DNA from: Gracilaria domingensis
Lineage: Eukaryota; Rhodophyta; Florideophyceae; Gracilariales; Gracilariaceae
Direction: 5' to 3'
Length of the DNA stretch: 64,000 nucleotides
Assembly: GCA_022539475.1 (NCBI GenBank)
Contig: VCMS01000179.1
Location: forward strand, 1-64,000
A program made the position numbers and the translations under genes. Below are positions 12,772 through 35,654 of the stretch, piece by piece (within the stretch, counting starts at the first letter, position 1; each line of letters begins with the position of its first letter). The notes beneath the pieces are model-generated. The model was not told where the DNA came from and did no database searches. It was given only the letters and a program-made list of their open reading frames with translations.

Positions 12772-12786
12772 CGTCTGTCTCTTGCA
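12772..12786 (+). repeat. Left terminal inverted repeat of element 1
   Basis: CGTCTGTCTCTTGCA is inverted relative to the right terminus at 35,640-35,654 with three mismatches. It is identical in element 2 at 46,805-46,819. Confidence 0.8.
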
Positions 12787-12804
12787 GATGCTAGTTTTTG
12801 GCGA

Positions 12805-12904
12805 GGGTCGTCCAGAAATTGGCAAGGGTCGTCCAGTAAATTTTTTGAAGAAATATCGAGATCAATTATTTCAAAATTTGCAGATAATTGCTTGGGTCGT
12901 CCAG
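12805..12904 (+). repeat. Subterminal GGGTCGTCCAG motifs (x3)
   Basis: The 11-mer GGGTCGTCCAG occurs at 12,805, 12,826 and 12,894 in direct orientation just inside the left end. All three are kept in element 2. Closely spaced subterminal repeats are commonly transposase-binding sites in CACTA-type elements; that role is inferred here. Confidence 0.6.
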
Positions 12905-13189
12905 AATCGCTGTGCAGTAAATACTGGTGGGTTTTCCACTCATGCTAGTTCTTTAGTTGAGGGCTACCTGAACGGTATTTCGCGAAGTCTAGGTTCAGTT
13001 TCCATTAAGGTGCACATTACACGATACCTTCTGCGGAATGATACCCTGCAACGCATGGAATACTAGTGCTAGTACAGATGATGCCCATTATGAAATCATA
13101 CCGTTTTATTCGTATCTATTCTTCTATCGACCGCTTTTGCTAACCACTACTTTGCTATATTACATGTACCATTTCCCCATGATGGAGCG

Positions 13190-13365
13190 GGTGTAGGCGC
13201 AATCTGCGGCAGATGCCGCAGACTGCACCTCCTCCATAGTGCTGTATCGGTAGAACAAATACGCACTCCGAGAGGATGAGGCGCGAAGCGCGTCATCCTC
13301 TCCGTTCCTCATGTAGGGAACCATGCCCAGATGCATGGTTCCCTACTTGAGGAACCTGCACCTGC
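13190..13365. repeat. Cluster of perfect hairpins in left subterminal region
   Basis: Successive inverted repeats can be read: TCTGCGGCAGATGCCGCAGA near 13,202; GAGAGGATGAGGCGC..GCGxCATCCTCTC near 13,270-13,303; and GTAGGGAACCATG..CATGGTTCCCTAC near 13,313-13,347. They are conserved in element 2 (about 47,228-47,380), including a compensating change in the second stem (GCGCGTCATCC versus GCGCCTCATCC). Confidence 0.65.
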
Positions 13366-13400
13366 AACTCGTGAGATACGTCCGCATCAAAAGTCATTTA

Positions 13401-14290
13401 CCTGTATACGCAAGCAGAAAGTATCCATAAGTTAGTCAATTCTCCGTTGGATGCATTTGAAATGCGATGGAACCTACCATTGATAAAACAAAACAGAAAC
13501 GTTGAGCTAGAAAAGTCGAGGGACCTAGTAACTCGCAAAGGGAAGAAGAAGAAGGAAAGAGATCGGTTAGATTACCAGCCTACCATCATCGTAAAGCGCG
13601 AAAGGTGTCGAAGCGAGAACTCACAACCAAGGACACCAAGAATGCCCATGCAACAAGCATACCTCAAGATGCGATAAACGAAAGAGCAGCCTATGTCCCA
13701 ACCAAGCACCAGAATCGCCTATCCCGAACAGCCAGAGATCGATCTTGAGAGACGAAATGAAATTGGTCGTTTACCTGTATACGCAAGCAGAAAGTATCCA
13801 TAAGTTAGTCAATGCTCCGTTGGATACATTTGAAATGCGATGGAACGTACCATTGATAAACCAAAACAGAAACGTTGAGCTAGAAAAGTCGAGGGACCTA
13901 GTAACTCGCAAAAGGAAAAAGAAGAAGGAAAGGGATCGGTTAGATTACCAGCCCACCATCATCGTAAAGCGCGAAAGGTGTCGAAGCGAGAACTCACAAC
14001 CAAGGACACCAAGAATGCCCATGCAGCAAACATACCGCAAGATGCGATAAACGAAAGAGCAGCCTATGTCCCAACCAAGCACCAGAATCGCCTATCCCGA
14101 ACAGTCAGACATCGATCTTAAGAGACGAAATGAAATTGGTCGTTTACCTGTATACGCAAGCAGAAAGTATCCATAAGTTAGTCAATGCTCCGTTAGATAC
14201 ATTTGAAATGCGATGGAACGTACCATTGATAAACCAAAACAGAAACGTTGCGCTGGAAAAGTCGAGGGACCTAGTAACTCGCAAAAGTAA
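13401..14290 (+). repeat. 373-bp tandem repeat, about 2.4 copies
   Basis: Units start at CCTGTATACGCAAGC at 13,401, 13,774 and 14,147; the third is truncated at about 14,290. Each unit keeps a lysine/arginine-rich open frame of about 100 residues (for example 13,745-14,050). No family is recognised, and the frame may simply reflect repeat composition. Element 2 carries one unit fewer. Confidence 0.85.
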
Positions 14291-14477
14291 CCCAAAGCCC
14301 TTTTCCTGCCGTTTACATGTCGCAGAGCGCGAAGAGACGTGGTGAGGATTGGTTAGTTTAGAACAAAGATACGTAGAAGGATATGAAAGCACGTACGAAA
14401 AGACTGCACGGAAAGACTGCACGGAATACATCCGTGAGATACGGATGCTGTCCGCTTTATGGAGGCGTCCGACGAGG

Positions 14478-14600
14478 GCGGAGAAAGAGAATGAGGTACG
14501 CTTCATGTCCGCTTAATGGAATCCATTAAGCAGAGATGAAGCGTACTTCATTCTCTTTTTCCGCACGCTACTTCGTAGCGAGTGCGAGGGCGGAAAAACG
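14478..14600. repeat. Long inverted repeat upstream of transposase
   Basis: The segment GAGAATGAGGTACGCTTCAT (14,487-14,506) is mirrored by ATGAAGCGTACTTCATTCTC (14,536-14,555) around a small AT centre near 14,521, giving a stem of about 40 bp. Next to it, CGCTACTTCGTAGCG adds a second hairpin. Element 2 has a rearranged version with a longer palindrome centred near 48,235. Confidence 0.7.
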
Positions 14601-14877
14601 TACGACGGAGCGGAGTAGAACGCGAGGATGGCACGGATCACGACGGTAACAGAAGGTCGGACGTCGGACGGGCGGCGGCGGCGGCGGAGGGAAGAAATTT
14701 ATTTTTCTGTGCGAGATTGGACAAGTGTACAGCCTACAACGTTGCGAACCCACAGGTTTATAACCGGTGGTAGATAATACGAGAAGTACACCCTTGTGTT
14801 GAGGTCGACGTGTACCTACGTTCCTTTTTGAACGAAAGCACGTGATTTAAACTCAAAATATATTCTCCGTTCTCAGC

Positions 14878-17800: not shown

Positions 17801-18153
17801 TTACCGCACCAGAGGTGGCATTCGTCCGTTATTTCGAGGTTTTACCCCCCGCAACAAACATCGACCACATATTGAAATGCATATCTTTACGGTGGGCTAC
17901 AAACGATGAAAAGAACCACACTCTTCCGTTCCCTTGTCATTCCAAAGCGGGGACTATCGTAGAGTTAACTCCTTGGTACGGGATAGTTCCGGCTTCTGCA
18001 CTACAGGGAACTGTCCATGTTGTTGGATCAAACTACCCTGCTCCACCTTTTTGTCCTCCACTTCAATGGTTTCAACACCGATTCTACATCAATCGATTCT
18101 ATCATGATTCAGATGAAGGACCAACTGAGCACGTTGATCTTGTACAGCCTTAA
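14878..18153 (+). pseudogene. Plavaka/Tnp2-like (CACTA superfamily) transposase, one premature stop
   Basis: The frame runs from 14,878 to 18,153 in one phase, interrupted only by TGA at 17,749-17,751, where element 2 has TGG. The likely start is the methionine at 14,974, because element 2 has lost the upstream ATG but keeps this one. That start gives about 1,060 residues. Right after it is a C2HC finger-like segment (C-x6-C..H-x3-C, residues about 5-30). A basic, serine/proline-rich linker follows. The core has 'IVWYSQEISYSESFVGLLQVYTDK', 'PLHLIFLNFSDELRRK', 'VVAYFP', 'LASYCADIPEAKDILSILHG' and 'CHRCKAP..SLC', then 'PLHNLHLGI'. These match the order of the D/C-rich core of Plavaka and Tnp2 transposases. 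It is the only transposase in the element and presumably acts on the CGTCTGT ends. The single stop suggests very recent inactivation, or readthrough or stop reassignment, which is less likely. Confidence 0.75.
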
Positions 18154-20546
18154 ACATTAAGGGCTCCATCCTCTACATGTTCACCTTGTGGTGCCTTTTC
18201 TTGTGATCCTGTGTTACTTCCGAAATCGTTCATGTCCATTTCCTTGAACTCCATATCCCCTTCCTCGCATTCACCAACGAAGCAATCGCTAATAGACCCC
18301 AATCTTCGGCTCACACTGTCAATAAAAAATTGTTCTTTCACAGTGAGGTAAAGTCTTCCGTTCGACGGCATTCGATATCCAAATGTAGCCTCTCTCATGT
18401 CATTACCAAGAACCTTAGTCCAATCTTCCGTTGTCGTTCCAAAATTATGAAACTCGCTGGAATTGGTCCTCAAGACACGTTGCCTAACATCCCCCAGAAC
18501 ATTCTTTAAACACAGAGGTAGCAGTTCGGCAAACTTCTTTGTAAACAGTTTCTGTCTCTGGCCACCCCTTGACACATCCGTACTTAGAAGGCTCACAACC
18601 GTCAACACCCAAGCGTCCAAACGTGCGAGCAACAGTATTGTGCCATCTAAAAAGGTGCCCGTATCCTTGTCTTCCACATCATACCCAATAAACTCCTTCA
18701 GCACTTGTACCCCGACACGGTTTCGGAAGAACAAGTCTTGATCTTCCGTCGGCATATCCTCGACATTGTCCGCATTGGAGTACTTTAGACGAACAAATGG
18801 GGCTTTTCTCCACCATGAAGTGTTCGGTACACCATTTTCGTCAAGACGCAGTATGTTCTCCTGCGCTTCCTTCAACTGCATTGTGAGTTCGTCAGCATTC
18901 TCTTCTACCAGCTTTGTTCTTCTCCAAATCAGATCGTACCCCAGGAGCAGAAATAGTTTATCCCTCGTATTTCTCTTACGAACGCCCACGACGTCACTCA
19001 TGGTCTGCCGCATTCTCTGCCTAAGGCAAATATCTGCACAAAGTTCCAGTATACACCTGTCGGTAAGAGATGCTTTTCTAATACCTTCCCAGCTCAACTC
19101 CTTCAACTCGCTTTCAACCATTTTCTTCAGCAAAGCATCTGGCCCCCCCTCTACCGACGGTTTGAACATACCAAAACTGCCCAAGAGCTCCACGGGGTTT
19201 TTAGAAACCATGTATGAACCACCTTCCTCCGGCCCAATAAGCCCTTCTCCACTCTCAGTTGCGTCTTCCACCTTCTCGGCACGGTTACCCCAATTTCGGG
19301 TGAGCGACTCAGCTTCGAGCCATAGCTCACTTGTTTCTCTCCTTGCCCACGTCAGCATGTTGTGATACACTGCTCGAGCAACCCCTCGAAACTCGTCGCA
19401 CACCTCAATTTTATGCTTCTTTCGACCTGTCTGCCCAGGTTCACCAGCACGTGTACTCCTATCTCCCTCCTGTTTCAGTGCCCCTCTTAGCCCTTCAATG
19501 ACTAGATCCTTCTCTTCAAGCCTCTTTTTCAAAGCCGTACTCTGCTCTTGGGCGACCTTCACTAGAATTCCCCGAACCATCAAGTCCTCTTGTAGCGTCT
19601 TAACCTTTTCTTTCAAGCAATTCAGTTCATTTAAAAGATCAGGTCTGTTCATAGAGCTTGAATTCACACCAGTTTGGATATCTTCCGTTATTTCCCTAGC
19701 TTCTTCGGCGACAGGCCCCGGTAATGCCGCAGGATTCGGTGTTATTTCGTTATCGGAACTATCCTCATGTGCCATAGCCTTAGACACGAGAGGCTGCAAG
19801 CGTTCTGTGTCCACCCTTGGCACGGCTCCGGGCTCCAACTCCCGTGTCTGTCCTCCTCCATGGCATGGTATATCAGATGAATTGGGCCTCGTACGAGCTG
19901 CAACGGTCCCCGTTCTGGAAAGAGGGGAAGGTCGAGGAGTAACTCGTCTATCAGTTGTCTCTCGATTTCTTATTGTCTTTCTCCCTTGTCCGGACCCATT
20001 GCGAGGCATGATACGATTCATAGCGGCCCCAGTTCTAGAAGACAGGGATGGACGTGACGATCTTAATATACTAGGGCTCTCACGACTTCTCGTCATTGTC
20101 CCTTGTTGTCCAGATCCACTGGGCGGCGTAACCCGCGCCCCAGTAGCTCCGTTCTTCGATATCGGCCGGGGACATGAAGGTTTTGGTGTCATACGAACCT
20201 CTTCGGTTCCAGTTGTCATGCCCTCCTGTCCTGACCGGCTGGGCCGAGTTACCTCATCTTCTTGAGGAGCAGAGACAGATGCACGATTTGCATTATCGGT
20301 AGTTGACGGCACGACATCGTTCGCTGATCCACGAATTCTTGACGCAATCCCGGAAGACGCTCGGCTGCAAGATGGGCGAGAGAGTCCTGTAGAAGGACGC
20401 CCACTCACTCTCTCCTTCGTCGAGGACGACTTCCGTTTAGGAAGTGCGGTGCTTGTAGCCTGATTCGTATCATCCGATGCTCTTCTCTTCTTCTGTCCAC
20501 TCTTGTTCCGCTGCGTACTATTTCGCTTTCTCGGCGTTATACCCAT
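18150..20546 (-). CDS. Basic/coiled-coil element protein, unknown function
   Basis: This is an intact minus-strand frame of about 798 residues from the methionine at 20,546; an upstream methionine at 20,615 would add 23 proline-rich residues that look like leader. Residues 1-270 are extremely basic and S/T/R-rich. They hold imperfect repeats of about 38 residues built on 'SGSGQ.G', 'R.T..RP' and 'SRTGA', a likely nucleic-acid-binding tail. About residues 305-375 form a leucine-heptad coiled coil ('LNELNCLKEKVKTLQEDL', 'LKKRLEEKDLVIEGL'). The remainder is globular and unrecognised. The stop codon overlaps the transposase stop by 4 bp, tail to tail. The gene is completely deleted in element 2. 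It may be the TnpA-like accessory protein of the element; that is inference from position and composition. Confidence 0.6.
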   Translation of the reverse strand: MGITPRKRNSTQRNKSGQKKRRASDDTNQATSTALPKRKSSSTKERVSGRPSTGLSRPSCSRASSGIASRIRGSANDVVPSTTDNANRASVSAPQEDEVTRPSRSGQEGMTTGTEEVRMTPKPSCPRPISKNGATGARVTPPSGSGQQGTMTRSRESPSILRSSRPSLSSRTGAAMNRIMPRNGSGQGRKTIRNRETTDRRVTPRPSPLSRTGTVAARTRPNSSDIPCHGGGQTRELEPGAVPRVDTERLQPLVSKAMAHEDSSDNEITPNPAALPGPVAEEAREITEDIQTGVNSSSMNRPDLLNELNCLKEKVKTLQEDLMVRGILVKVAQEQSTALKKRLEEKDLVIEGLRGALKQEGDRSTRAGEPGQTGRKKHKIEVCDEFRGVARAVYHNMLTWARRETSELWLEAESLTRNWGNRAEKVEDATESGEGLIGPEEGGSYMVSKNPVELLGSFGMFKPSVEGGPDALLKKMVESELKELSWEGIRKASLTDRCILELCADICLRQRMRQTMSDVVGVRKRNTRDKLFLLLGYDLIWRRTKLVEENADELTMQLKEAQENILRLDENGVPNTSWWRKAPFVRLKYSNADNVEDMPTEDQDLFFRNRVGVQVLKEFIGYDVEDKDTGTFLDGTILLLARLDAWVLTVVSLLSTDVSRGGQRQKLFTKKFAELLPLCLKNVLGDVRQRVLRTNSSEFHNFGTTTEDWTKVLGNDMREATFGYRMPSNGRLYLTVKEQFFIDSVSRRLGSISDCFVGECEEGDMEFKEMDMNDFGSNTGSQEKAPQGEHVEDGALNV

Positions 20547-20793
20547 GTTGTGGAGATAAACAGGGTAATGAAACGAAATTGTTGGGGAGGGGGGGAGGGG
20601 ATGGGGGGGGTGCATGGTTCAGATATTCCGGGAGACTCCGCAGTTCCTGCTTTTTAGGAATTTGAGGTGCCCAATGGGTCGCAAATATCGCCGTTACAGA
20701 TGAAGAGCTCCAGTGTACATGTACAACAACGCGTATTGCAGGCAGCTGCAACACTCACAAGCATATTTACTTTCTATTCGGTACTGAACTCAT

Positions 20794-21312
20794 CTATTGC
20801 TCCAATGTCAGAGCCCAGTCCCAGGCGTACTGCTCTCCGTAGTTGAAATACAACTCTTCGCCCCTCTCAATATCTCTTACTGCTCTACAACGAAGTAGAG
20901 CATAGTTAGAAAGGTCTGACTTAAACTGTATCACGGACTTCGCTTCCACCACCTGCACATTGGCACTTCGAGTCCTGTTTGACCGGGGCTCCGATAAATC
21001 GGGATCCCCGGCATGATGTCCGGCGTCGTTAATGTAGCCCCCGATACAAAAAGGCGCCGGGACAATGTAGACTTCGCTCTCCTTTCTATCCTGAGCCTGT
21101 CCTGGTCTGTTCCTCAGGTGCAGAAACTCCGTACTAGTCACAGTGACTATCATAGAAAACAACTTGTACCGCACTGGAGTTGCTCCGAGACAGCCACTTC
21201 CATACGTTAAGTGTCTTTCCTTCCGGTTCGTCAGATCCGTGTATGCCAAAGTTCCATAGAAATGACAGATAGTTTCCCCAGCCAATATCTTATGTTCCCT
21301 GAACACCCCCAT
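20794..21312 (-). CDS. SET-domain lysine methyltransferase ORF
   Basis: A short frame of 172 residues encodes most of a SET fold. It begins 'MGVFREHKILAGETICHFYG', matching the G-x-G-V-F..I..G..I..Y.G opening strand. The middle holds 'GGYINDAGHHAGDPD', replacing the usual NHSCxPN. The end is 'YALLRCRAVRDIERGEELYFNYGEQYAWDW', matching the A..DI..GEEL...YG..Y close. SET enzymes methylate lysines, usually on histones. The conserved 'HPRAG' immediately before the methionine continues the domain upstream in this frame until a TGA. The true coding unit is therefore probably longer: either joined to the overlapping methyltransferase (82 bp overlap, shifted frame) by splicing or frameshift, or broken by mutation. 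Catalytic competence is uncertain. Confidence 0.7.
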   Translation of the reverse strand: MGVFREHKILAGETICHFYGTLAYTDLTNRKERHLTYGSGCLGATPVRYKLFSMIVTVTSTEFLHLRNRPGQAQDRKESEVYIVPAPFCIGGYINDAGHHAGDPDLSEPRSNRTRSANVQVVEAKSVIQFKSDLSNYALLRCRAVRDIERGEELYFNYGEQYAWDWALTLEQ

Positions 21313-23621: not shown

Positions 23622-23632
23622 CGCTTCAGCGC

Positions 23633-23737
23633 AAACAACGGAGGCGAGCCTTTAAATGGCGACTTACGCTGGGCACCCCCGCTTTCGGCAGCTCCTCCCA
23701 GCGCACTGCCAGTCTCGTCCGTGTCCGTGTCTGCTCG
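23633..23737 (-). promoter_or_regulatory. Leftward copy of a shared inverted promoter
   Basis: About 105 bp immediately upstream of the methyltransferase ATG are an inverted copy of 25,094-25,202, upstream of the ParB-like gene. Shared landmarks are TTTAAA (23,651-23,656), 'CTTTCGGCAGCTCCTCCCAG' and a GTCCGTGTCCGTGTC run. Non-coding conservation in opposite orientation next to two divergent start codons indicates a duplicated promoter. Confidence 0.7.
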
Positions 23738-23885: not shown

Positions 23886-24892
23886 CGGAAGTGCCGGGAG
23901 GAGTGTTTTGGGAGGTCTCCGGAGGGTGTCAAAAAATCGTCCAAAACGTGCCCGCGGGCGGCGGGGGGGTCGGTCGTGTTAGGGTAGCTACCCTAACACG
24001 ACCGGATCCCCACGCCCGCGGGCATAAAATCGCACATTTTTCAAAAATTCGTCGAAAACGTGCCCGCGGGTGGGGGGGGTCGGTCGTGTTAGGGTAGCTA
24101 CCCTAACACGACCGGACCCACCCGCCCGCCGGCATAAAATCGCACAATTTTCAAAAAATCGCCCAAAACGTGCCCGCGGCCGGGGGGCGGGGTCGGTCGT
24201 GTTAGGGTAGCTACCCTAACACGACCGACCCCTCCCCCCCCCTGCCCGCGGGCACGTTTTGGACGATTTTTTGACACCCTCCGGAGACCTCCCAAAACAC
24301 TCCTCCCGGCACTTCCTGTACCCACTGCGTCACCTCAGTGCACCATCCCGGAAATTAGGGAATGTCTGGAGGGTGGAGAAGACGGGATGGTCACCTCAGT
24401 GCGCCATCCCGGAAATTAGGGAGTGTCTGGAGGGTGAAGATGACGGGATGGTGCACTAAGGTGACGCAGTGGGTACAGGAAGTGCCGGGAGGAGTGTTTT
24501 GGGAGGTCTCCGGAGGGTGCCAAAATGTGGCCAGAACGTGCCCGCGGGCGGGGGGGTGGGTCGTGTTAGGGTGGGGTAGGTACCCTAACACGACCGACCC
24601 CCCCCCCGCCCGCGGGCACGTTCTGGGCGATTTTTTGAAAAATGTGCGATTTTATGCCCGCGGGCGGGGGGGTCCGGTCGTGTTAGGGTAGCTACCCTAA
24701 CACGACCGGACCCCCCCGCCCGCGGGCACGTTTTGGACGATTTTTTGAAAAATGTGCGATTTTATGCCCGCGGGCGGGGGGTCCGGTCGTGTTAGGGTAG
24801 CTACCCTAACACGACCGACCCCCCCGCCCGGGCACGTTCTGGCCACATTCCGGTGCCTTCCCGGGACCTCGCAAAACACGTCGCCGCGCAGT
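23886..24892. repeat. Palindrome array B (6 units in two modules)
   Basis: Six palindromes are centred near 23,988, 24,108, 24,211, 24,573, 24,691 and 24,802. The core is GTGTTAGGGTAGCTACCC plus its complement, extended by CGGTC/GACCG and CCCGCGGGCGGGGG arms, so the stems reach about 34 bp per arm. They alternate with a 40-bp AT-rich spacer (CACGTTTTGGACGATTTTTT, then GAAAAATGTGCGATTTTATG). Two modules (23,886-24,323 and 24,474-24,892) are each bounded by inverted copies of a GGAGGAGTGTTTTGGGAGG motif. Between them is an inverted repeat of about 75 bp around two 61-bp direct repeats (24,331 and 24,392). The array sits exactly between the divergent promoters. Confidence 0.9.
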
Positions 24893-25093: not shown

Positions 25094-25202
25094 GAGCGGC
25101 CACGGACAGGACACGGACAAGACTGGCAGTGCGCTGGGAGGAGCTGCCGAAAGCGGGGGTGCCCAGCGTAAGTCGCCATTTAAAGGCTCGCCTCCGTTGT
25201 TG
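25094..25202 (+). promoter_or_regulatory. Rightward copy of the shared inverted promoter
   Basis: This is the mirror of 23,633-23,737, with TTTAAA at 25,179-25,184, 76 bp before the ATG at 25,260. It is also present in element 2 (about 52,553-52,664). Confidence 0.7.
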
Positions 25203-25259
25203 TATCGTCCAGAGCGAGCGTATTGTTGATATACACCTTCACTGCAATAGCTGTTCAAG

Positions 25260-27269
25260 ATGAAGCCAACTCGTGTTCGAAAGCGTACGCAAAGCGTGAC
25301 TCCTCGCACTCGGCGGAGCACTCGATTATTGCAAGGTGGAATGCGGGTTTCTCTGCAGATGGATATTGAGGATGAAGGAAAGGTGATAGTCGGGGAAGCG
25401 TTGTTGCATGAATTGTAAGTGTTCTACGCCGCGAGTTGCACGGAAGCAATTGGACCCAGGTCTGTGGTGGTTCATAATATTCTCATCAGTCGAAGCGGTC
25501 AGACGTTCTACCCTTACCGGCGGAGGGCCTAGATCTTCCACAATATATCCAGGATCTCCGGACGGCCGCTCCTTGGATGAGAAAATGATGGAACCGGTGG
25601 CAGCCAGCATTCCGGCGTCGAAGCAGGAACGGTGAGCGCTATGAGTGAGGTGATGACGCCGACAAGCCGCACGGAGCCAATTCGAAGTTCATCAACACCG
25701 AGAGGTAGCGCATCAGTACCACCTCCGCGGGCAGGTCCGTCGTCTGTTACGAACGGTCTATGGAGACGAGAGCGTCCCCAGCTACGAAGCGACAGGTCAA
25801 ACAAAGTCTACCTCCGCCACGAAGCCCACTGCGTCGAAAAGGCTTTTCCTGCGATGAATCAGACCGTCGACACAACGGATCTTCTGCGTCGAAACAGACG
25901 GTTCAGCAGGGACCGCCGTGCAAGAGGAGGAAGATGAGATCATGAAAGTCCCCTTCCAGACGCGATGCGCAATCCGCGCAAGGAGCTGGTCCATCTGTAC
26001 CCCAAACTGCACCAGAAACTGCGGAGCAGTAGGACGATGACGTTGTGTTTCTGTCCGCAAGAATGGCACGTTCAAGTGTTTCTGGCGACGGTCTGGAACA
26101 CAAGGACACCTACTCGGAGCAAGACTACAGACGAATTCGTCAGAAGTACCAAAGATGAACCTCAATCAGTACCGGATGGTTGTTGTTACTGTTGACATCA
26201 CCTGTGAACACTCCGCCCAATTTACTCCGTGGAGTAAGTAAACGCCACGTTGAAGCCCTTGTGAAGAGTATGGAGGAGCGGGGATATTGCAGTCGATGGT
26301 TCTCCAGTGTAGCCTTACAAGATCTACTACGGGAGAGAGGATACTGACAAGGGACGCCTAACGAAGAAGTGCTTCATTGTAGATGGTTTGCATCGTCTGA
26401 AAGCTATACAATATTTGGCAGCGACTGATGCACCGAAGTGGAAGCGATTAGCCAAGTTTTGGCGTTGCCAATCTGCTGATACGAAGAGATGGGAGGGGCC
26501 CATTGGATGAAGGAATGTTAGTGTTGCCCTTAGTACCCTCATGATCGACGATACCATGCGAAGGATGCATGTTTGCAGACAAGATACACTCATAGTTAGT
26601 TGTGTCGCCCATTCTAATGAAGATGTTGAGGGGGTGACGCCGGCAGACCGTGGATCCTGCCCGAAGACAGAAGTNGTCGACAAGTACCATGCTAAGTTAT
26701 GATGTTGCAACAGATACACTCTATATTAGTGGTCGCCATTCTTAATTGAAGATGTTGAGGGGTGACGCCGGCAGACGTGGATCCTGCAAAGTGACAGAAG
26801 TGTTGAAGGAGAGCCAACTGATTGGGACTGTGCAAGAGCGTCAGTATCTGAGATATGCCAATGTCGCCCTGCAACTCATGTCTCGTGAGGGAATGCTGGC
26901 CCATTTCGAGGATATATGTGAGACTGTGAGTGACATAGGTCTCACACATCTGTCCCATACTCCGCTATATGTTTTGGATGCCGAGGAGTTTTCCTTCATT
27001 CTTGATTGTCTTCAGATGTTTCTATTGAAGGGCAAGTCGACGAAGACAAAGCAATGGAAAGCTTTGAGGAGGTTCGAGGTTTCTTTTATGAAAGAGCAGT
27101 GTCTCTGTTCCGCGCGGCTAGAGCAGTGAGGAATGAACTGAACGAGGAAGAGTCCATGGAAGTGTTCCTGAAACGCGAAGTCAGTCTTTCTGCTCCATCG
27201 AATGAAGATGACGTTGAAGACCCAGACAACAACGCAGCTGTGTATCAGTTCCTTTGGGACAAGTTGTGA
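25260..27269 (+). pseudogene. ParB-like (ParB/sulfiredoxin fold) protein, frame-broken
   Basis: The ATG at 25,260 opens a very basic start ('MKPTRVRKRTQS'). Comparison with element 2 shows that the original protein ran on without the stop at about 25,414. A lysine/serine/threonine-rich linker continues to about 26,150. A ParB N-terminal-domain signature follows: 'LLRGVSKRHVEALVKSMEERGY' near 26,220-26,290 and 'KKCFIVDGLHRLKAIQYL' near 26,368-26,420. These correspond to the 'S..xGxxxP' and 'GxxRxxA' boxes. A helical C-terminus reaches 27,269. ParB-fold proteins bind DNA partition sites or act as nucleases or CTPases. Many single-base indels break the frame relative to element 2, and an N plus a local duplication occur at 26,570-26,810, so part of the damage may be sequence error. 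Confidence 0.6.
26570..26810. other. Suspicious local duplication with ambiguous base
   Basis: About 26,571-26,695 and 26,700-26,800 are near-copies ('agatacactc..tagt..gtcgcc..' through 'gacgccggcagac.gtggatcctgc') with scattered indels, and position 26,674 is N. This looks like two error-prone read ends joined in assembly rather than biology. Confidence 0.6.
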
Positions 27270-29276
27270 ACTTCAACACATTGCCGCGTGTTCGGAGCAG
27301 GACGAACTCAATTAGAACTGCCGCGACTTCCGTTCAGAATCGATTGCGGACGATGCTCAAGGTAATTCCGCCCCCCGCACCAGTGAAGCAGTCCGTGACG
27401 AAGAGGAGCACTCCCGCTGCTGCTGCTGCAACATCTGCCAGTGAAGAAGGGGAGCCGCGAAGAAGTGCACGAGAACGGGCGCAGGTGAGTTATAGGGAAA
27501 TCGAGCACGGCCGAAATCGAGGTGCCATAGAAGTTCTGGATAGCTCTGAAGAAGAACAGCGGGCTCCGCCGAGGAAGAAACGGAGAAAGACTTTCACACA
27601 ACAGATGAGATCTACTCTGAACAGCATGACACCGGATGACCTGATGTCTCAACTAAATGAACATGTGCTGAGAGGAAGGTCGATGAAGGTTCAGTTCGTG
27701 GCATTGGGAGAGGGAGCGAATGCAGAGAACGCAGGCAGTTCTGCATTTGTGGATGACGATGAGCTTCTTTCTGTGACAGTTCCACGGGTTGTCACCGTCG
27801 AGAAAGATGCTGCGCCAGACGATCAGCAAGAGACAGGTGGGGGGTCATTTGATGACGAATTACCTACAGCTCTTCCAGAATCTGAGGAGCACGGACTTGT
27901 TCGAGGTGACCCATATGATGGCCCACCGAACCCATCATGGTGCGGGTATGCCAGGCTGAGACCGCAGGAATGGCAAGGGAAGAACGTAATTGAGCACAAG
28001 GACGCCTGGCTCAGAGTCATTCACTTGCCGAAGGGACATAGGTCGGAGCTGCTAAGTGTCTCGAATCTCAGAGATGTACACCATCTTGTGTTTTGGCACG
28101 CTGCAAGGTCTGAACATCGCCTACGGGCGGAGACATTTGGTATGCAGTATCCTCGTACTCGACCGACAGGTATGGATGATGAAGAGGTGCTGTGGGTTGC
28201 TGCGAAGGAGCATGACGAATTTGGGCAAATGTTCTTCGCCCGAATGCAAGCTGAGCTAAGGCAGAATGGATATTGCGTGCTTGATGGCTTTGCGACGGAT
28301 AATGCTGTCCCTAAATGGGAGGAGTTGGAAGAAGTTCGGGAGTTCGGAGATGTGTCGGGGAAGTTGGTGGACTTCTTCGAGAATGAGTATGGAGCGATGC
28401 CGGATATACGGAAAGGAGAGGAACAGAAGTCGTTTGTTCAAATAATCAACGATGATGAAGGATGGAAGGACGGTAGCGATGGACCATTTGAGGGGAGAGT
28501 GATGTCGACACGTTGGGGTACGGTGGAGAAGCCGGAGGATAATGAGGAGCTCAGGTGGGTTGTAAGGTCGCGTGCTTTACTTGATGTTCGAATGGGTACA
28601 ATTGCTGCGGCTTTGGGACTATGGGACAATGAAAGGGAAGCTGTGAAGATGTACACTCCGAAAACTGGTGGTCGATTTCTGTGGACCACGAAGAAGTGCA
28701 AGCGCCAGACGCTGCACAGCGACTTCACTGGTCTGGTTACGAAGGAACAATGAATACTGGTAACACCGGATACTTTGTAATGGCCTCTGCGAAAGAGGGC
28801 TTCCCTCTCTGGGTGAGCGCTGGAAGCCATCAACTGGTGGGGATGAACAACCAACAGTTGCGAATGATGTCGGAGGTGTATCCAGCGAAGAAGATAATCA
28901 TCCCATCGTACTCTGTATTCGTGGGCCGTGGTGATGAGACACATGCTGGAGCAAGTGGGAAGGAAAAGGGGGATAGGCCCGAGTCTATGGATTTGCTGGT
29001 TAGATACCACATGTACATGGTACCAGAGGGCTACGCACTACCTGATGCTGTTCATCGGGTGCGGGATTCCGACCCACGTTTGTCAATGGTGACGAGGAGG
29101 AGGAGGCGGAGGATAAACTGTTGTCCGATAAGGAGGGTGGGGCGGTTGACATGGACGAAGACCAAGTGGTCGTGGAGATTGGTGTGGAAGCGGACGCCGG
29201 TAGAACCGAAGTGCTCGAGAGTAGTAGTGATGACGATTTGCCAATAATGAGGCTGCGAGCGCCTCGAAGTGGATGA
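27254..29276 (+). pseudogene. 2-oxoglutarate/Fe(II) dioxygenase-like protein, two frameshifts
   Basis: The first 130 residues are low-complexity and basic with 'PPRKKRRK', a nuclear localisation-like tract. A double-stranded beta-helix domain follows. The 'QTLHSDF' segment (CAC at 28,715, GAC at 28,721) supplies the HxD iron-binding pair. After a frameshift between about 28,724 and 28,750 the protein resumes 'NTGYFVMASAKEGFPLWV'. 'GDETHAGA' (second histidine near 28,942) and 'VRYHMY' (2OG-binding arginine near 29,002) complete the H-x-D..H..R set. A second shift near 29,065 leads into an acidic tail ending at 29,276. Enzymes of this fold include TET/JBP and AlkB nucleic-acid demethylases and protein hydroxylases; the exact subfamily is not determinable by eye. 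It starts 16 bp before the ParB-like frame ends, so the two could be one spliced protein. It is absent from element 2. Confidence 0.6.
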
Positions 29277-29540
29277 GAATGAGATGATTAGTAAACTATG
29301 TGTGTCTTGCGAGTATTAAGAGTAGTATACTATTACAAGGCTATACATATGAACATAGAAAAGGTGCGGCAGGCTGGTAATTGAACAAATGTCAAACGTC
29401 TTTGGTCCAGTTGCGTCTAATTGCAACATGCGAAATGCTCGGTATCGTTAACATCATTGGTGGCACCAGTCAATTCGCAATTGAACATGTAGCGTCCTAA
29501 CATTTCTGAAACTGCACTTAAGGTTGCTTTTAAGAGAAGT

Positions 29541-30451
29541 ATGAAACTGAGAAGTCTATACAGTTCCTGTCTATGCGGTACTTGTGGCAGTATGGTGACT
29601 GTATCAGGAAAAATGGCAGAGGAACAGAGAGACTTGGCGGAAATTTCACCAAATACCTTGTCTAAGTTCATATATGCCAATGGTTACGGTATATTAAGTT
29701 CCGTTGATGGAACGTTGAGAAGAGAAGGAGAGTCAATTCCAGAAGAAGTTGTGAAGTGTATGAAGTTCATTGACGAACGTGTTGGTTTCGGACTTGTCAC
29801 AGGGGGTGATGTGGGCGACGTGGAGGGGAAAATGGAAGGACTCGAGACTATAAGTTTGGTGTCTCGGCGAATCATGGAGCTTTCCTGCGTTTCTCTGACG
29901 AGAGGGAAATTAAGGGTGCATTCAATGATCACACCCTTGACCACACTGTTGACGGACTACTGTTCCTGGCAAGGGATTTGAATAGGAGGCATGGTATTGT
30001 GAATGATGATGACAAGGGGTTCGTGGAGACCAGAAGTGATAGTGGCCTTCCCAATTTCGTGTACAACAAACTGTGGCAGTGGAAAGAAGAAGTGGATTCT
30101 GCTATTGGGGACCTGTTGCAGAAGATGGATGCGTTTGTTATCTATCCCGGCGATAAAAGTTGCGAAATTGTGGACAAGCGATACACAAAAGGAAGCGGAG
30201 GAGAAAATCTTGTGGATAATGAACCGAGATTTATTGATACGGATGATGTCGTGACGTTCGGAAGTGCTTTGAGCGACGGGCCTTTGCATGAGGTAGGCGT
30301 GTACGGCGTTCACGTCAAAGAAGACTGTATCCCGGGTGGAGTACACAACCTGTTCGAAAGCTTGGAGGATGTACATTCGACAATTATGTTGGTGGCTCTG
30401 TTGTACGGCTACGAGGAAAAGCAGCACGATAAAAACCACCATGAATCATAA
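29541..30451 (+). pseudogene. HAD-superfamily phosphatase-like protein (copy 1), frameshifted
   Basis: The segment 'YGILSSVDGTL' resembles HAD motif I (DxDGT), but the first, nucleophilic aspartate is replaced by serine. 'GFGLVTGGD' matches the ATGR-type motif II region. After a frameshift near 29,850, 'KFGVSANHGAFLRF' matches the GNHGA segment of trehalose-phosphate-phosphatase-like HAD enzymes. The rest reads through to 30,451 with 'DTDDVVTFGSALSDGPL' near the usual GDDxxD region. It is a paralogue of the facing gene at 30,506-31,453. Loss of the nucleophile suggests an inactive enzyme even before the frameshift. Element 2 keeps only about 120 bp of it, at 53,650-53,776. Confidence 0.6.
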
Positions 30452-30505
30452 AAGGGTATTGAGATATATACGACACTTTTATTACTGAGATCTCATATCA
30501 TAGCT

Positions 30506-31453
30506 AAGTATTACAGGCATCGTAGCACTTGAAACAAATTCCAAGAGCATTTCTAAACCATTGACACTTGCATTTTCTGTACCCGTACAGTTCTGCCACC
30601 CTTCTGATGGTCTCATGCACGTCCTCCTACCCATCAACAAGATGTGTTACCGCTGCTGGATGGTCTTCTCCCTTCACATGAACTGCCAGGGTTGCCATTT
30701 CATATAGAGGGCCATCATTGGAAGCATTCCCGAAAGCAACGATTAAATGTGTGTCGAACTGGGGGTCGTTTTCAACCAAGGCTAGCGCCCCACTATTTTT
30801 CGTGAAACGAATGTCCCCTATGTCACAGTTTTCATCTTGAGGGTACGCAACCAGGTTCGAAAGGATGTCAACACTTTTGAAATACCGGAGTTAACTTCTG
30901 TTTTCCACTTCGACAGTCCATTGTACGTGAAGTTAGGGAGTCCACTGTCTTTTCTAGTGCTCACCACTGCTTGTTGACGCTCTTCGTGAAGTCCGTGCGA
31001 TTCATTTAATGAGAGTGCAAGTCTCTCAAGTTCGGCTGCACATCTTTCGTAGCCTTCCCTGTCAAGGTCCTGATCAATTTCGGTACCATTGGATAATCTC
31101 ACCCGTGCGCCTTGGTTTCCAGAGATGCCAAAAGTGTAGCCACCCAGGTGCTCCATGAAACTCTCGGCATCCTCTATATCTCGCCCAGTAGCAATTCCGA
31201 AACCAACGAGTGCGTTGATGTACTTCATGCATTTGACTGTTTCGGCAGGAATGTTCTCCCCAGCTCTTTCCAGAGTACCGTCAACATCACTAATCACGGC
31301 GTAGCCATTTTCGAATATTTCGTTAGCCAGCTGCTGAGAAGTTACTTCTTGGGCTCTAACTTCTGAGTTATACATGTTTTGAAAGCTTTCGAAAGGGTTC
31401 GTTTCGCAAATGGGTGTGGGTATACGAATGAGAAGGATGTGATTGATGTTCAC
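30506..31453 (-). pseudogene. HAD-superfamily phosphatase-like protein (copy 2), frameshift and stop
   Basis: 'YAVISDVDGTL' is an intact HAD motif I with both aspartates. 'GFGIATGRD' matches motif II, and 'YTFGISGNQGARVRL' the GNHGA-like segment; the overall layout is that of Cof/trehalose-phosphate-phosphatase-type HAD enzymes. The open frame stops at 30,818, but homology to copy 1 continues in another frame ('LVENDPQFDTHLIVAFGNASNDGPLYEM', then after a TAG near 30,627 'EDVHETIRRVAELYGY') to about 30,506. There are therefore one frameshift near 30,850 and one stop. The genes face each other tail to tail, 55 bp apart. Confidence 0.65.
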
Positions 31454-32002
31454 AAGGTGTTTCGTAGTATAAAAAGAGTCTAAGAACGACCATATACGGG
31501 TATTGTAGTACTGTTTTAAAACGTTACTAGGAGGAGAAGTTTTTGCATCGATTTGAAGTAAAGAAAGGATGATTTAGTCATAAATTATATGTACGGGTTC
31601 AAGTGGGTAAAGAAAACTGTAAATATCTTTAACATGAGCTTAGAAATCAAGAAGAGTAAAACAACCTCCATTACGGTTTGAAACCCATAAAAGGTTTACC
31701 TTACTTTATACGGGTGCCCCAAGTAATGCAAACGCTTAGTTCTTCAGAAATATCACAATTTTTGTACTTGTTTCGTTACTAGTATCGTGCACTTTAATGA
31801 TATGGAATGACCATTTTCTATCTAGCAAAATCTTAGCGAAGTATTAGTGATAACGGATGTAGGATTTAAAGGGGCATATTTGAACCACAGAAGGACGAAC
31901 AATATAAGTAATGTAATAGGAACAGGTCATTTCGATAAAGTAACTTTTATGTTTAACTATCTCTAAAAGGTTTACAACACCGAAAAGTCATGTGTTCTAA
32001 CC
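31454..32002. other. AT-rich spacer
   Basis: No gene is supported. Positions 30,940-31,920 are missing from element 2. Confidence 0.3.
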
Positions 32003-32905
32003 TCAAAGCTGGGGGAATGGGGAGGGGTATAACTCTTCCTTAACAACGTTGACGTAGTTTGTATGAAAAGGAGCGGGGTCACCCCCTACGATGTTTCTTT
32101 CTTGGCGGGAAAAGTCGTAGAAGTACGCGTTCCTAAACTGAAAGTCGGAGAAAGAAGTAGGGAAGCCAACGAGAGTTTTCCCATATGCAAGAAGTCGCCC
32201 AACCGTTTCTTCCAGGTTGAAAGTAGTACCTGTCTTAAGCGAAACTATCTTCAACAGCTCTTTCATTATTGTGAACACAACCGTACTGTACTCCGTAGCG
32301 ACTACGTCCATAGGAATGAAACCTCTTGAGGCCCCGACGATGTTGAACGCTGATAGCCACACGAGCTTCTCATAATAGCTTACGAGAAATGTGTCTTCGT
32401 CGACAACCCCGCAAGTGAGACCCATAGACCTAAACCTGTCTGCAACGTTGGAGGCCCACTTTCCTGTTGCGACAGTGAGACCATCCGAACTTTGAGGAGT
32501 GACACCATCCTGCGGAGCTGCGTTTCTTGAGGGGACACCAACGTATAGGACAACTTTTGAACATTTGTCCACACCGAGCTTCGAAACCAATGGTATGATG
32601 TCTCCATTCTGGAAGAAAACGAGATTCTCTCTAAGCGAATAAGGGCAAGCCTGAATTACGGTCTCCAGGGTGTTCGTTCTTCCACAAACTAGTATCGGTA
32701 CATCAGAAAGATGAGAGGTAGCAGCCATGCTGCAGAATTCGTGTGCGGAAATGACCGTATCTTCTTCGTTCGCCAGCATGGTACCTATACGTCCCCTTCC
32801 AACAATAACGGCCCGAGTCCTTCGGGCGGGAGATGAGGCCTGAGGGACGTCAGAGTATCTGGGACTCGGAGGCGGAGTGGGAGGCATGTCGTACTGGGAG
32901 TTCAT
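32003..32905 (-). CDS. Ketopantoate-reductase-like NAD(P)-dependent oxidoreductase
   Basis: The frame is about 300 residues from the methionine at 32,905, which matches the start kept in element 2; the frame is open further upstream to 33,106 but with non-protein-like composition. A proline-rich N-terminus is followed by a Rossmann start 'TRAVIVGRGRIGTML' (GxGxxG-like, residues about 25-40). The C-terminal helical half contains 'YYEKLVWLSAFNIVGA' and 'IMKELLKIVSLKTG', matching the PanE/ApbA C-terminal domain with its conserved lysine and glutamate. PanE reduces ketopantoate in pantothenate synthesis; in eukaryotes related proteins have unknown substrates. The frame is intact here and nearly identical in element 2, which has one premature stop. 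Its presence inside a transposon suggests capture from the host. Confidence 0.6.
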   Translation of the reverse strand: MNSQYDMPPTPPPSPRYSDVPQASSPARRTRAVIVGRGRIGTMLANEEDTVISAHEFCSMAATSHLSDVPILVCGRTNTLETVIQACPYSLRENLVFFQNGDIIPLVSKLGVDKCSKVVLYVGVPSRNAAPQDGVTPQSSDGLTVATGKWASNVADRFRSMGLTCGVVDEDTFLVSYYEKLVWLSAFNIVGASRGFIPMDVVATEYSTVVFTIMKELLKIVSLKTGTTFNLEETVGRLLAYGKTLVGFPTSFSDFQFRNAYFYDFSRQERNIVGGDPAPFHTNYVNVVKEELYPSPFPQL

Positions 32906-33307
32906 TACAAGTGTTCGAATGTTTTTGTGTGACGATAGAAATGGAAGATGGGGCGGAGAACTGCTGGGGTAAAGAGTGATACTTAAGTAAAAACGGTTGG
33001 GAAGCGCAGAACGGGAACATGGTTCACTTTGTGAAAGTGAGCGAAATGTATGATATGTGATTGTACTGAATGAATGATAGGGCTTGTATGAGACGACAAG
33101 CCACAAAGTGTGATGATGTTTTATGAAAGGTAGGTGGAAGAGTAGAAAGTGTGCAATGAATGAAACTGATTTCGAACCTGAGTTGTAAAGTAGTTGTAAA
33201 GTACGAGTTACGGGGAGCTTGAATACAGGATGAAAGGAGCCATTTTGGCTTCATAAATGACGTGAACGGGTTCTATAGCTTCACTTGGATTGCTATAATT
33301 AAAAGGA

Positions 33308-33623
33308 TGGAGTTGGATTGCGCCCGAATACGTCTATAAAGGTCGTAGAAGCACTTATGAAGGAAGGAGTTGTAGACATGTTATTGTTGATGACGGTGGA
33401 GCCAGGGTTTGGAGGACAGGCGTTTATGGAGGGTGTTCTTGATAAGGTGCGACATGCAAGGGAGTTGTACCCAAGAATAGGGATACAGGTGGATGGAGGT
33501 ATTGGACTGAGTACTGTGAAAGCAGTAGTGAAGGCCGGTGCAAACATTTCAGTTGCAGGATCTGCCATCTTTGGCGCGAGTAACCCAGCTCATGTCATAG
33601 CTGGTTTTCGAAAGGTTTGTTAG
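33308..33623 (+). pseudogene. RPE: Ribulose-phosphate 3-epimerase C-terminal fragment
   Basis: About 105 residues match the last half of the RPE TIM barrel: 'LRPNTSIKVVEALM', 'VDMLLLMTVEPGFGGQAF', 'DKVRHARELYP', 'IQVDGGIGLSTVKAVVKAGANISVAGSAIFG'. These include the MxVxPGFGGQ loop and the catalytic aspartate in VDGG. The N-terminal half, including the first metal-binding residues, is missing; upstream sequence is promoter-like for the divergent reductase. The fragment cannot be an active epimerase alone. It is preserved as an open frame in element 2. It is best explained as a gene fragment captured by the element, or as an exon whose partner exons lie elsewhere. Confidence 0.8.
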
Positions 33624-33699
33624 AGATAGTAGCATAAATTTATTGTTTATTACATTGTTACCTTTACGTGTTATCACGACTATATTCTCCGTCTCCATT

Positions 33700-34020
33700 G
33701 GAGATCTATTTCTCCTGTATCACAACCGGGAAAGGATGTGAGAGAACATAAATATATCCCCAGTGGAAGCTGAGAGGGAGGGTGAACTACTCTACGTGCT
33801 ACCATTGTTACCCATCCGGTGTCGAGTGGTGACATATTCTTTTTCTGTCACAACCCACAAAGGATGTGAGGGAAGAAGAACATGCCCGCAGTCGAGACAG
33901 AGGGTGAGCAACTCTAAGTACAATCACTAGTCCCTAGCTTGCCTCCACTGGCAATATCTTCCTGTTTTGCTATAACCATCGAGTGAGGTTATGGTGGAAG
34001 AGAAAAATATCGCCGGTCGA
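33700..34020 (+). repeat. Three imperfect repeats of about 125 bp
   Basis: Segments near 33,708, 33,835 and 33,953 share 'tcctgt.tcacaac...aaggatgtgag' followed by 'gagaa..ata...cc.c..tcga..g.gaggGtg'. They precede the coiled-coil gene and are retained in element 2. They may be promoter repeats; the function is unknown. Confidence 0.45.
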
Positions 34021-34256
34021 GGCGAGGTGGGTGGGGACTATGTGAAGAGGGGACAGAGAGATGGCGCTTAAATAGTGGAAGGTGCGGAGGTGTACAGTAG
34101 ATGTTTTGGCGGGAAATGGGATGAGGGAAACAGGGACAATCATGGTGCTGGATATAGCCCGTGTGGTTGGACAGTGGGGGTGGACAGCACAGTTTAGCTC
34201 GATTGCACTGTATCGCAGCGGAAACTTCGATCCAACTACTACTTCTTCTTCTGAAG

Positions 34257-35186
34257 ATGTCGAACGGATACGTGAAAGATGAGGAGCTGTTGGCGCTGTT
34301 GGAGGGGGAGGAGGTACCGCAGACGCCGTCACCAAAGCGGGAAGAGGACGTGATTACGGCGGCTGGTCGGATGTTGCAGAAGAAGGAAGCGGCCGATGAA
34401 GGAAAGAAGTGTGAGGCGAGGAGAGGGGATGGTGATGAGGTGGAGAAGGGGGTAGAATTGGAGGTGGAGGGGGTCGCAATGGAGAGAAGGGGTGCGGTGC
34501 ATCTGAGTCAGTTAGAGGTTGGAGACCAGATAGAGAGTGGGGGCGGAGAGGGTGACAGAGAGATGCGGTTTGTAAGGGAGATGAAGGCGAGAGTGGGGAT
34601 GTTGGGGTTGGTGATGAAGGAGCAACTGGACGATGGAATGGTGGAGATTGTAACGGAAATGGGCGGTGTGGTGCTGAGTGGGGGTGGTAGTGGTGTTTCG
34701 GTTGAGGCGATTTCGAGCCTGCGGAATTCGTTGTCGGTATTGGGAGTGGAGATGAGAAATCATGTGTATGGGATAGTGGAGTGTGCGGGAAGGGAGGTTG
34801 GAGAGTTGCGGGAGGAGAATAGGGTTCTGAACGAGAGGTTGGACGTGCTGGAGAAGGAGGTGAAGGAGCTGGGCAAGAGGCAAAGATTGGTGGAAGAGGA
34901 GACGGTGAAAGGACGTGTGGAGGGAAAGACGGAGAAGGGAAGTGTGGGAAGGGTGGCGGTGCAGAAGGGGTCTCCTGTGACACCGAAGACAAAGGTTGGT
35001 GGGGTTGGGGATGGGAAGAGCCGTCTGAAGAAGAGGCGTAAGGAGATGAAGAAGGTGGTGGAGGAGGTGCGGCGCGAGGGAGTCGGAGCTCCGGTGGTGA
35101 CTGGGTTTAGGAGTGCGGCGGAGGTAGCGCGGACTGCGAAGGGGATTCTGAGGGGACAGGAGGAGAGAAGGATGGGAGGGATTTGA
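34257..35186 (+). CDS. Acidic coiled-coil element protein
   Basis: This is an intact frame of 309 residues from the ATG at 34,257. The sense strand is strikingly purine-rich (G/A), giving a Glu/Lys/Gly/Val-rich protein. Residues about 175-235 form a clear heptad coiled coil ('VGELREENRVLNERLDVLEKEVKELGKRQRLVEE'). The C-terminus is basic ('GKSRLKKRRKEMKKVVEE') with 'KGILRGQEERRMGGI' at the end. No family is recognised. Near-identical copies exist in elements 2 and 3, all open, so it is the best-preserved gene of the family here. It ends 470 bp from the right terminus. It is possibly a DNA-end-binding or multimerising accessory factor; this is inference. Confidence 0.65.
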   Translation: MSNGYVKDEELLALLEGEEVPQTPSPKREEDVITAAGRMLQKKEAADEGKKCEARRGDGDEVEKGVELEVEGVAMERRGAVHLSQLEVGDQIESGGGEGDREMRFVREMKARVGMLGLVMKEQLDDGMVEIVTEMGGVVLSGGGSGVSVEAISSLRNSLSVLGVEMRNHVYGIVECAGREVGELREENRVLNERLDVLEKEVKELGKRQRLVEEETVKGRVEGKTEKGSVGRVAVQKGSPVTPKTKVGGVGDGKSRLKKRRKEMKKVVEEVRREGVGAPVVTGFRSAAEVARTAKGILRGQEERRMGGI

Positions 35187-35329
35187 AGCCGTTTTGGGGC
35201 GAGGCGGGTATACGAGAAGGGGGAGGGTTGTACACCTGACTTCTACAAAATGACGTTTGCGGAGACGGAGAGAGAGGATGCGAACGCGTGGTGGGCGAGA
35301 AATGGGTAAATAGCGGGGGTGGTGTGGAC

Positions 35330-35654
35330 TGGGAAGAAGCGATGGGATGATTGAGGTGGGATGAGTTGCGATTGGCATTGCAACATGGGAGAAAATGGAA
35401 AGGCAAACTAGCACGAGTGCAGTTTTGAGAGAGGGTCGCGGAAAAGAGTGAATGGGGTGGTGCGGCGAAGTAGAACCTCTACAAAAACTAGGGGACCCAA
35501 GAACTAAACTGCGCGAAATGGAATTTAATATTCCAAAATTTCTTAATTTTTTGAGTGCCAGCCTCTGCTACCCCCTCGCGCGCCCAAAATAGCCCCAAAA
35601 CTAGCTTAGTTTCTAAAGCGAACAGACTATATTCCACTTTGCAGAACACAGACG
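35330..35654 (+). repeat. Conserved right end of element 1 with terminal inverted repeat
   Basis: The last 325 bp are shared by all four right ends in the window. They include GGAATTTAATATTCC (35,520-35,534), a perfect palindrome, 'ACTAGCTTAGT' (35,601-35,611) and the terminus TGCAGAACACAGACG (35,640-35,654). Confidence 0.8.

Follow-up and report, generated by a model that had tools for sequence, protein, structure and literature searches.

We analyzed a window of 64,000 nucleotides from the red alga Gracilaria domingensis (GenBank assembly GCA_022539475.1, contig VCMS01000179.1, positions 1 to 64,000) and found that it holds a full-length copy of a giant, cargo-carrying DNA transposon of the Plavaka type (CMC/EnSpm group). 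The element, of which this copy is referred to here as copy A, encodes, in addition to its transposase, a predicted beta-class DNA amino-methyltransferase (MTase) joined to a SET domain, and a divergent second gene with a ParB-like part and a part resembling 2-oxoglutarate (2OG)-Fe(II) dioxygenases. An array of palindromes lies between the two genes. We regard the element itself and the MTase-SET fusion as practically certain. See Table 1 for the coordinates of all features.

The classification follows from the transposase, which matches PF18759 at 69.3 bits against a cut-off of 26.3. Plavaka is its sole Pfam match at E values up to 1, and no KDZ (Kyakuja/Dileera/Zisupton) transposase was found in that search. 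We searched the entire assembly (77.9 Mb in 680 contigs) with this and other parts of the element; the best candidates alone were scored, so the numbers of genome places given here are lower bounds. The transposase was scored at 48 of 1680 candidates with 96-100% identity, and an 1100 amino acid (aa) frame is present in 34 of the 48. Copy A and a second copy in the window, copy B, have identical termini, CGTCTGT...ACAGACG, which form a short and imperfect inverted repeat, as an earlier note made from the DNA letters had observed. Fungal Plavaka subtypes end in TGT..ACA or CATCA..TGATG, according to PMC12730594. The ends of the present element match the terminal letters of neither subtype, although inverted repeats are nonetheless present. 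The element is Plavaka by its transposase and falls outside PlavakaA and PlavakaB.

The extent of the element is defined by additional copies. A copy on another contig (C57:63645-86477) is colinear with copy A over the entire length, in one order and orientation, and a further contig (C23) has two element ends 22,819 bp apart. Genome-wide, the left end was scored at 40 of 611 candidates and the right end at 40 of 646. Alignment of copy A against copy B by blastn shows that B covers positions 12772-17777, 23754-26166 and 31919-35654 of A as well as a fragment at 30051-30177. Copy B is an internal-deletion derivative. Its ends, palindrome array and right-hand genes are still present, along with a truncated beginning of ParB-2OG, and its transposase frame is kept with one in-frame stop. 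The earlier note placed the cargo between the ends of both copies; this is correct for A, but B itself is devoid of the 822-aa gene, MTase-SET and the 2OG part. Since B keeps the start of ParB-2OG and the palindromes without MTase-SET, it argues against a cargo that was inserted later into a small element.

We observed no target-site duplication in any of the four copies in which both ends were read (A, B, C57 and C23), where Plavaka would be expected to leave 2-3 bp. The dinucleotide CG was considered as a duplicated target but found no support, as the left-flank repeat reads CC at the site in the three copies read and the left end of C57 also reads CC. The two flanks of copy A are unlike a single target, which makes recombination or misassembly possible. 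Its left flank lies inside a repeat, and the continuation of that repeat differs from the sequence 3' of the right end of A. Copy A could therefore be a recombinant or the product of a misjoin, but C57 confirms the order of its interior. The flanking sequence itself (12424-12771, with loci L050-L052) is another high-copy repeat, and several of its listed copies are paired ~11 kb apart, as could be the case for long terminal repeats.

The cargo genes belong to the transposon. We searched the genome with four of them, namely the 822-aa gene, the MTase, the 2OG part and the gene at 32.0-33.1 kb. Each was found in at least 55 places, with identities of 88-100%, and many of these places have the spacing and strand predicted from the element: 55 of 911 candidates were scored for the 822-aa gene, 56 places from 1149 candidates for the MTase, 86 of 734 for the 2OG part, and 111 of 567 for the 32 kb gene. 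The search for the ends and the gene set that the earlier note had proposed thus recovers each end in at least 40 places and shows that the cargo is not confined to this locus. When the 436 scored hits were placed on the element map (spacing tolerance 2.5 kb, strand required), 87 clusters contained two or more different parts, whereas 200 permutations gave 12.2 such clusters on average and never more than 21. Hits within colinear clusters comprise 18 of 48 for the transposase, 30 of 55 for the 822-aa gene, 31 of 56 for the MTase, 45 of 86 for the 2OG part and 41 of 111 for the 32 kb gene. Many hits fall outside clusters, in part because the top hits alone were listed and because many copies are rearranged or shortened; the copy on contig C465 is an example of rearrangement. 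A 1522-aa open frame (C465:34758-43000, L031) adjoins that copy. Chance nesting, in which unrelated host genes or other transposons landed in one copy, might be suspected from the abundance of nested repeats in the window and from the repeat that surrounds the left flank of copy A, but we consider it extremely improbable and reject it given the end-to-end colinearity of C57, the recurrence of all four genes, the excess of clusters and the pieces of the deleted stretch that B holds, unless many contigs were misassembled at once. Copy B, which has the same ends and lacks these genes, is no counterexample of the kind that the earlier note had named, since it is an internal deletion in which remnants of the lost stretch are still present.

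In undamaged copies, the MTase and the SET domain form one open reading frame (ORF) of 1055 aa. Five of the 20 MTase loci fetched have this ORF (L010, L013, L014, L023 and L024), and a stop-free 1055-aa frame occurs in 9 of 57 listed rows, which represent 56 places. The L010 frame matches PF01555 (N6_N4_Mtase) at residues 516-753 and PF00856 (SET, E value 1.8e-7) at 883-1042. The earlier note recognized the transposase, the amino-MTase and the SET domain correctly (E values in Table 1); the domains it read as separate ORFs are, however, parts of a single protein, and they appear separate in copy A because ~0.3 kb between them is missing. In C57, both lie in one 594-aa frame, although the frames of that copy are broken as well.

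The motifs of both domains are well conserved. In the MTase, LVLTDPPFNT begins at residue 517 and PGDLVMDMFAGTFSTGMAC at residue 717, so that DPPF precedes FAGTFST. We take this order to be motif IV ahead of motif I, which is the arrangement of the beta class. DPPF is retained in 26 of 27 copies, and this motif points to N6-methyladenine (6mA) as the probable product. Among the six commonest forms, which were the ones listed, the SET motif GMGVF is present in 22 of 24 copies and ELYF[ND]YG in 17 of 19. The SET part has weak similarity in the PDB to MLL1, with a best E value of 0.012. A viral or bacterial origin of the MTase was considered and rejected: no relative was confirmed among viral contigs or genome contigs searched with the MTase, and tblastn against phages returned distant MTases alone, at no more than 28.9% identity in the best 10 of 236 records.

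The second gene is divergent from MTase-SET and is broken in copy A. Its intact form is a single frame of 1308 aa (C296:12485-16408), with a ParB-like segment containing VDGLHR followed by LHTDF, GSH and GDVTHAG, motifs expected of a 2OG-Fe(II) dioxygenase. Stop-free frames of at least 1290 aa occur in 7 of 86 listed places. HxD, GSH and THAG are each present in all 14 readable copies, and DGLHR in 8 of 10. By the judgement of these motifs, the 2OG-like assignment is likely to be right; the ParB-like assignment, from VDGLHR and one weak profile match, also appears likely, by a slightly smaller measure. The ParB-like and 2OG-like proteins of the earlier note correspond to one ~1308-aa frame and not to separate proteins. 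PDB searches with the 2OG and ParB parts gave nothing useful and no 2OG chain, and a scan of viral contigs with the 2OG part confirmed no relative. In the alignment to C57 over positions 24539 to 29852, single-base gaps number 48 in copy A, of which 33 fall in homopolymers, but just 8 in C57; over 13766 to 21335, A and C57 have one each. The 24539-29852 region of copy A resembles unpolished assembly, and the broken frames in it could be artifacts of assembly.

The palindrome array is flanked on either side by the 5' end of one of these divergent genes. Copy A has five exact cores, where the chance expectation in the window is 0, and the 30-base palindrome occurs exactly 272 times in the genome, while its reversed control does not occur at all. 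Six copies were examined (A, C57, C128, C155, C296 and C465, the second gene being partial in C465), and in each of them the array sits between both genes; copy B has retained it though both genes are lost or cut. We tested the neighborhood of 50 listed places out of the 272. These form 22 arrays, 12 of which have a listed element part within 12.5 kb, compared to 2.4 for random positions (maximum 7); the other 10 have no listed element part within that distance. We infer that the array serves as a shared promoter and possibly as a binding site of the putative ParB-like protein. The palindrome halves read TTAGGGT...ACCCTAA, like telomere repeats placed face to face, at 23976-24812 and at the 272 genome places.

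Next, we compared copies of both genes to neutral simulations in which each observed difference was re-placed at random sites of the same base and CpG state. For MTase-SET, 20 copies were compared to L010 as the reference, 19 of them from loci best matching the window protein; pairwise ratios of nonsynonymous to synonymous rates (dN/dS) were calculated for 21 copies less L012, L015 and L026, whose coverage was below 90%. Variants shared by at least two of the 20 copies comprise 18 nonsynonymous changes versus 29.6 expected and 23 synonymous changes versus 10.1 (0 of 500 simulations as low), and singletons are nearer to neutral (66 of 500). Because the best-scoring loci favor few nonsynonymous differences, six lower-scoring copies were added. 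These gave omega-like ratios of 0.46, 0.51, 0.55, 0.65, 0.61 and 0.49, and no more than 11 of 300 simulations reached values this low. The SET domain alone gave 0.30, 0.60, 0.42, 1.20, 1.12 and 0.37 in the same six, a mixed signal because the ratios range to either side of 1. For ParB-2OG, 12 copies were compared to C296 and two lower-scoring copies were added; its 2OG part gave 0.54 in C155 (15 of 300) and 0.91 in C128. The comparison shows that MTase-SET is maintained by purifying selection and that ParB-2OG has no clear selection signal.

We propose that the two genes, divergent around the palindrome array, form a chromatin-marking module encoded by the element. In a single binding event, MTase-SET would place an amino-methyl mark, probably 6mA, on the DNA of the element and a methyl mark on lysines of histones close by. 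The ParB-like protein would recognize the palindromes and carry an oxidizing activity to the shared promoter, where this activity would remove or alter a mark. Together, both proteins could act as a self-contained switch that times the expression or movement of the element in a host without a detected C5 methylase. We favor this model over the alternatives below, but offer it tentatively and consider it somewhat more apt to fail than to hold. The genes that the earlier note read as a kit of writers and an eraser do belong to the element; the two supposed writers are one protein, and the supposed eraser has no 2OG or TET/JBP profile match. If the model holds, the fusion of a DNA methylase to a SET domain would be a direct link between two epigenetic layers, which in other eukaryotes are bridged by readers and partner proteins, and a high-copy element in a genome without a detected C5 methylase would be a testable case of a mobile element that supplies its own marks.

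Several observations weigh against this model. The ParB-like segment has a single weak profile match (phrog_3264, E value 0.0083), and Pfam ParB_N has no match in the genome, where a control matched 10 of 14 genomes. No Pfam family, including 2OG and TET/JBP profiles, was found for a 995-aa frame at E values up to 5 or for a 1286-aa frame at up to 10; HMMER filters discard most weak matches, so a distant TET/JBP relative could have been missed, and the short 2OG piece used in one Pfam search ended ahead of the distal histidine. The ratio for ParB-2OG is 0.81 overall (73 of 500); it is 0.89 when shared variants are taken by themselves (222 of 500), and the two lower-scoring copies have 1.05 and 0.87. 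The SET domain has only three shared variants in the 20-copy set, and two of the six lower-scoring copies (C208 and C96) display no constraint on it. Four of the 20 MTase loci (L016, L017, L018 and L020) have in common an MTase frame that stops before SET. This subfamily and copy B, in which both genes are lost or cut, mean that copies without an intact fusion have also spread. Finally, none of the copies seen combines both ends with a full set of intact genes, and A and C57 are each broken in several genes.

Phycobilisome linker domains give 14 matches on nine contigs of the assembly, and of 14 control genomes a cyanobacterium alone matched, as fits a host that is a phycobilisome-bearing eukaryote and most simply a red alga. 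The state of DNA methylation in this host bears on what the module could act on. The C5 methylase domain PF00145 has no candidate in the genome, although one could be hidden by introns that divide the gene or by a break in the assembly; in a control, 10 of 14 genomes matched, and those that did are prokaryotes. Because no such domain was found, erasure of 5-methylcytosine (5mC) is an unlikely role for the 2OG part. A TET-like, 5mC-erasing function, which also finds no TET/JBP match, is not favored, and the comparison to TET/JBP enzymes drawn in the earlier note does not fit such a genome. A review (PMC8566409) reports ~8% methylation, mostly non-CG, in Gracilariopsis chorda. This fits awkwardly with the absence of a C5 methylase match here, and it is worth asking which enzyme is behind the marks in such red algae.

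Alternatively, SET and 2OG might disrupt histone-based silencing by the host, such as trimethylation of histone H3 lysine 27 (H3K27me3), while the DNA methylation repels silencing factors, so that the module would protect the element and not time it. Repeats of the unicellular red alga Cyanidioschyzon carry H3K27me3 (PMC8566409), fungal Plavaka, Kyakuja and other elements bear TET/JBP dioxygenases thought to counter silencing (PMC12730594), and the SET ratio is below 1 in four of the six lower-scoring copies. However, SET domains write marks, no demethylase profile was recognized, the 2OG part is weakly constrained or not at all, and no 5mC writer was found that a TET-like enzyme could oppose. 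We consider counter-silencing unlikely, if well above negligible.

Another possibility is that the genes are passengers, captured and carried without benefit, while the element is moved in trans by the transposase of any copy. The near neutrality of ParB-2OG in the compared copies and the four loci with an MTase frame ending before SET would fit, as would four of the 22 listed palindrome arrays, which sit 1.7-1.9 kb from the 32 kb gene, a spacing resembling that of deletion copy B. On the other hand, all six lower-scoring copies have a nonsynonymous deficit in MTase-SET, which is not expected of neutral passengers, and this account seems to us decidedly unlikely. The same low standing applies to control of transposition, in which a mark on the ends or transposase sites couples movement to replication or limits the copy number. 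Dam methylation controls bacterial Tn10 in this manner. A transposon-encoded amino-MTase under constraint is in keeping with such control, and the subterminal repeats and the palindrome array are candidate sites, but SET and 2OG are left unexplained.

A bolder form of the chromatin-marking model is that the transposon has replaced the missing 5mC system of its host with a portable one, a eukaryotic chromatin editor guided by ParB and parS. One polypeptide would write DNA and histone marks together, and a ParB-like clamp would load at the parS-like palindromes and spread the oxidizing domain along the element; bacterial ParB spreads out from parS. We regard this as a long shot, less probable again than passenger cargo or control of transposition.

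The giant elements of Bostrychia moritziana are reportedly Plavaka. PMC12477816 cites Petroll et al. 2025 (doi 10.1016/j.cub.2025.04.044) on B. moritziana for giant EnSpm elements. These and the present element are alike as giant DNA transposons of red algae that bear a number of accessory genes. Among published ideas, the nearest is the accessory protein of the Sola element Sola1-1_Ec32 of Ectocarpus, which joins ParB and an amino-MTase in 1104 aa within a 21.5 kb element, is a predicted writer of N4-methylcytosine (4mC) or 6mA, and is proposed to bind and mark its own element; relatives are said to occur on green and red algal transposons (PMC12477816). The two systems share a similar protein size, a similar element size and a gene opposite to the transposase. 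They differ in transposase superfamily and in that ParB and MTase are fused there, whereas here they lie in two divergent genes of one element, as MTase-SET and ParB-like-2OG-like. Fungal PlavakaB is comparable, as a Plavaka element that also bears a putative 2OG oxygenase, believed to target marks on DNA (PMC12730594). Unlike fungal TET/JBP transposons, the present element has no TET/JBP profile match and carries a DNA methylase aboard, in a host in which no C5 methylase was found.

In rotifers, a lineage that lacks C5 methyltransferases, the circuit of N4CMT and SETDB1 similarly ties an amino-MTase of bacterial type to the methylation of histone lysines (PMC8885841). There, however, the host silences through separate proteins and a chromodomain reader, whereas here one transposon polypeptide has both domains. 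Some genes of the giant Plavaka repeats of Amoebidium match only distant lineages, including dinoflagellates and red algae; many genes of those repeats are tyrosine recombinases, and that host uses 5mC (PMC11244446). The general idea is thus already published, as giant red-algal elements, ParB-methylases on algal transposons and TET/JBP on fungal Plavaka, and the statement in the earlier note that no family with this combination had been described was too strong for the idea. A DNA-MTase-SET fusion on a transposon does not appear among the literature matches listed, and a prior description in Petroll et al. 2025 or Iyer et al. 2011 is possible.

Table 1. Features of the element and its copies in the 64,000-nucleotide window
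Feature	Position	Strand	Basis or remark
Copy A, full length, 22,883 bp	12772..35654	+	Ends common to B and many genome copies; colinear with C57
Left terminal inverted repeat CGTCTGTCTCTTGCAGA	12772..12788	+	13 of 17 bases match inverted right end
Right terminal inverted repeat	35638..35654	-	Last 200 bp: 40 of 646 candidates scored genome-wide
Three subterminal direct repeats, period 373 bp, third copy weaker (60%)	13393..14438	+	Repeat finding
Plavaka transposase, 957 aa	14878..17751	+	PF18759, E 4.5e-19
822-aa protein, basic N-terminal tail by eye	18150..20618	-	No Pfam match at E up to 1
SET domain, C-terminal part of MTase-SET	20794..21327	-	PF00856, E 2.5e-7; split off here by ~0.3 kb deletion
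Predicted beta-class DNA N6/N4 MTase, N-terminal and central part of MTase-SET	21231..23651	-	PF01555, E 8.7e-15; phrog_67, E 3.6e-22
GC-rich palindrome array, core GTGTTAGGGTAGCTACCCTAACAC, spacings 110, 113, 481 and 109 bp	23953..24842		Between 5' ends of two divergent genes
ParB-like and 2OG-Fe(II)-dioxygenase-like gene, frame broken	25251..29273	+	Aligns to intact 1308-aa frame C296:12485-16408
HxD codons 28715-28723; distal H codon 28942	within 25251..29273	+	Motif positions
HAD/phosphomannomutase-like fragments	29493..30451	+	Resemblance by eye to neighboring HAD ORF; no Pfam match in either frame
HAD-IIB hydrolase-like ORF	30818..31573	-	PF08282, E 4.2e-9; TIGR00099, E 6.6e-8, below its cut-off
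415-aa ORF, possibly NAD(P)-binding	32003..33250	-	No Pfam match; best PDB match E 0.37 over 33 residues
342-aa charged ORF, coiled-coil-like by eye	34158..35186	+	No Pfam match; present in B too
Copy B, internal-deletion derivative	46805..57529	+	blastn of A against B
Right end of another copy, inverted, leaving window	62668..64000	-	Inverted repeat, 99% over 1334 nt
Lone right end of another copy	9856..10228	+	Direct and inverted repeat families, terminal sequence

Rfam and tRNA scans of the window gave no matches. Outside the element, an inverted repeat at 39798-42407 has 1150-nt arms that are 98% alike with 310 nt between them, and it adjoins a retrotransposon RNase H at 43.8-44.3 kb. Within the element, HAD/phosphomannomutase-like pieces occur in both orientations at 29493-31573, perhaps as a decayed duplication.

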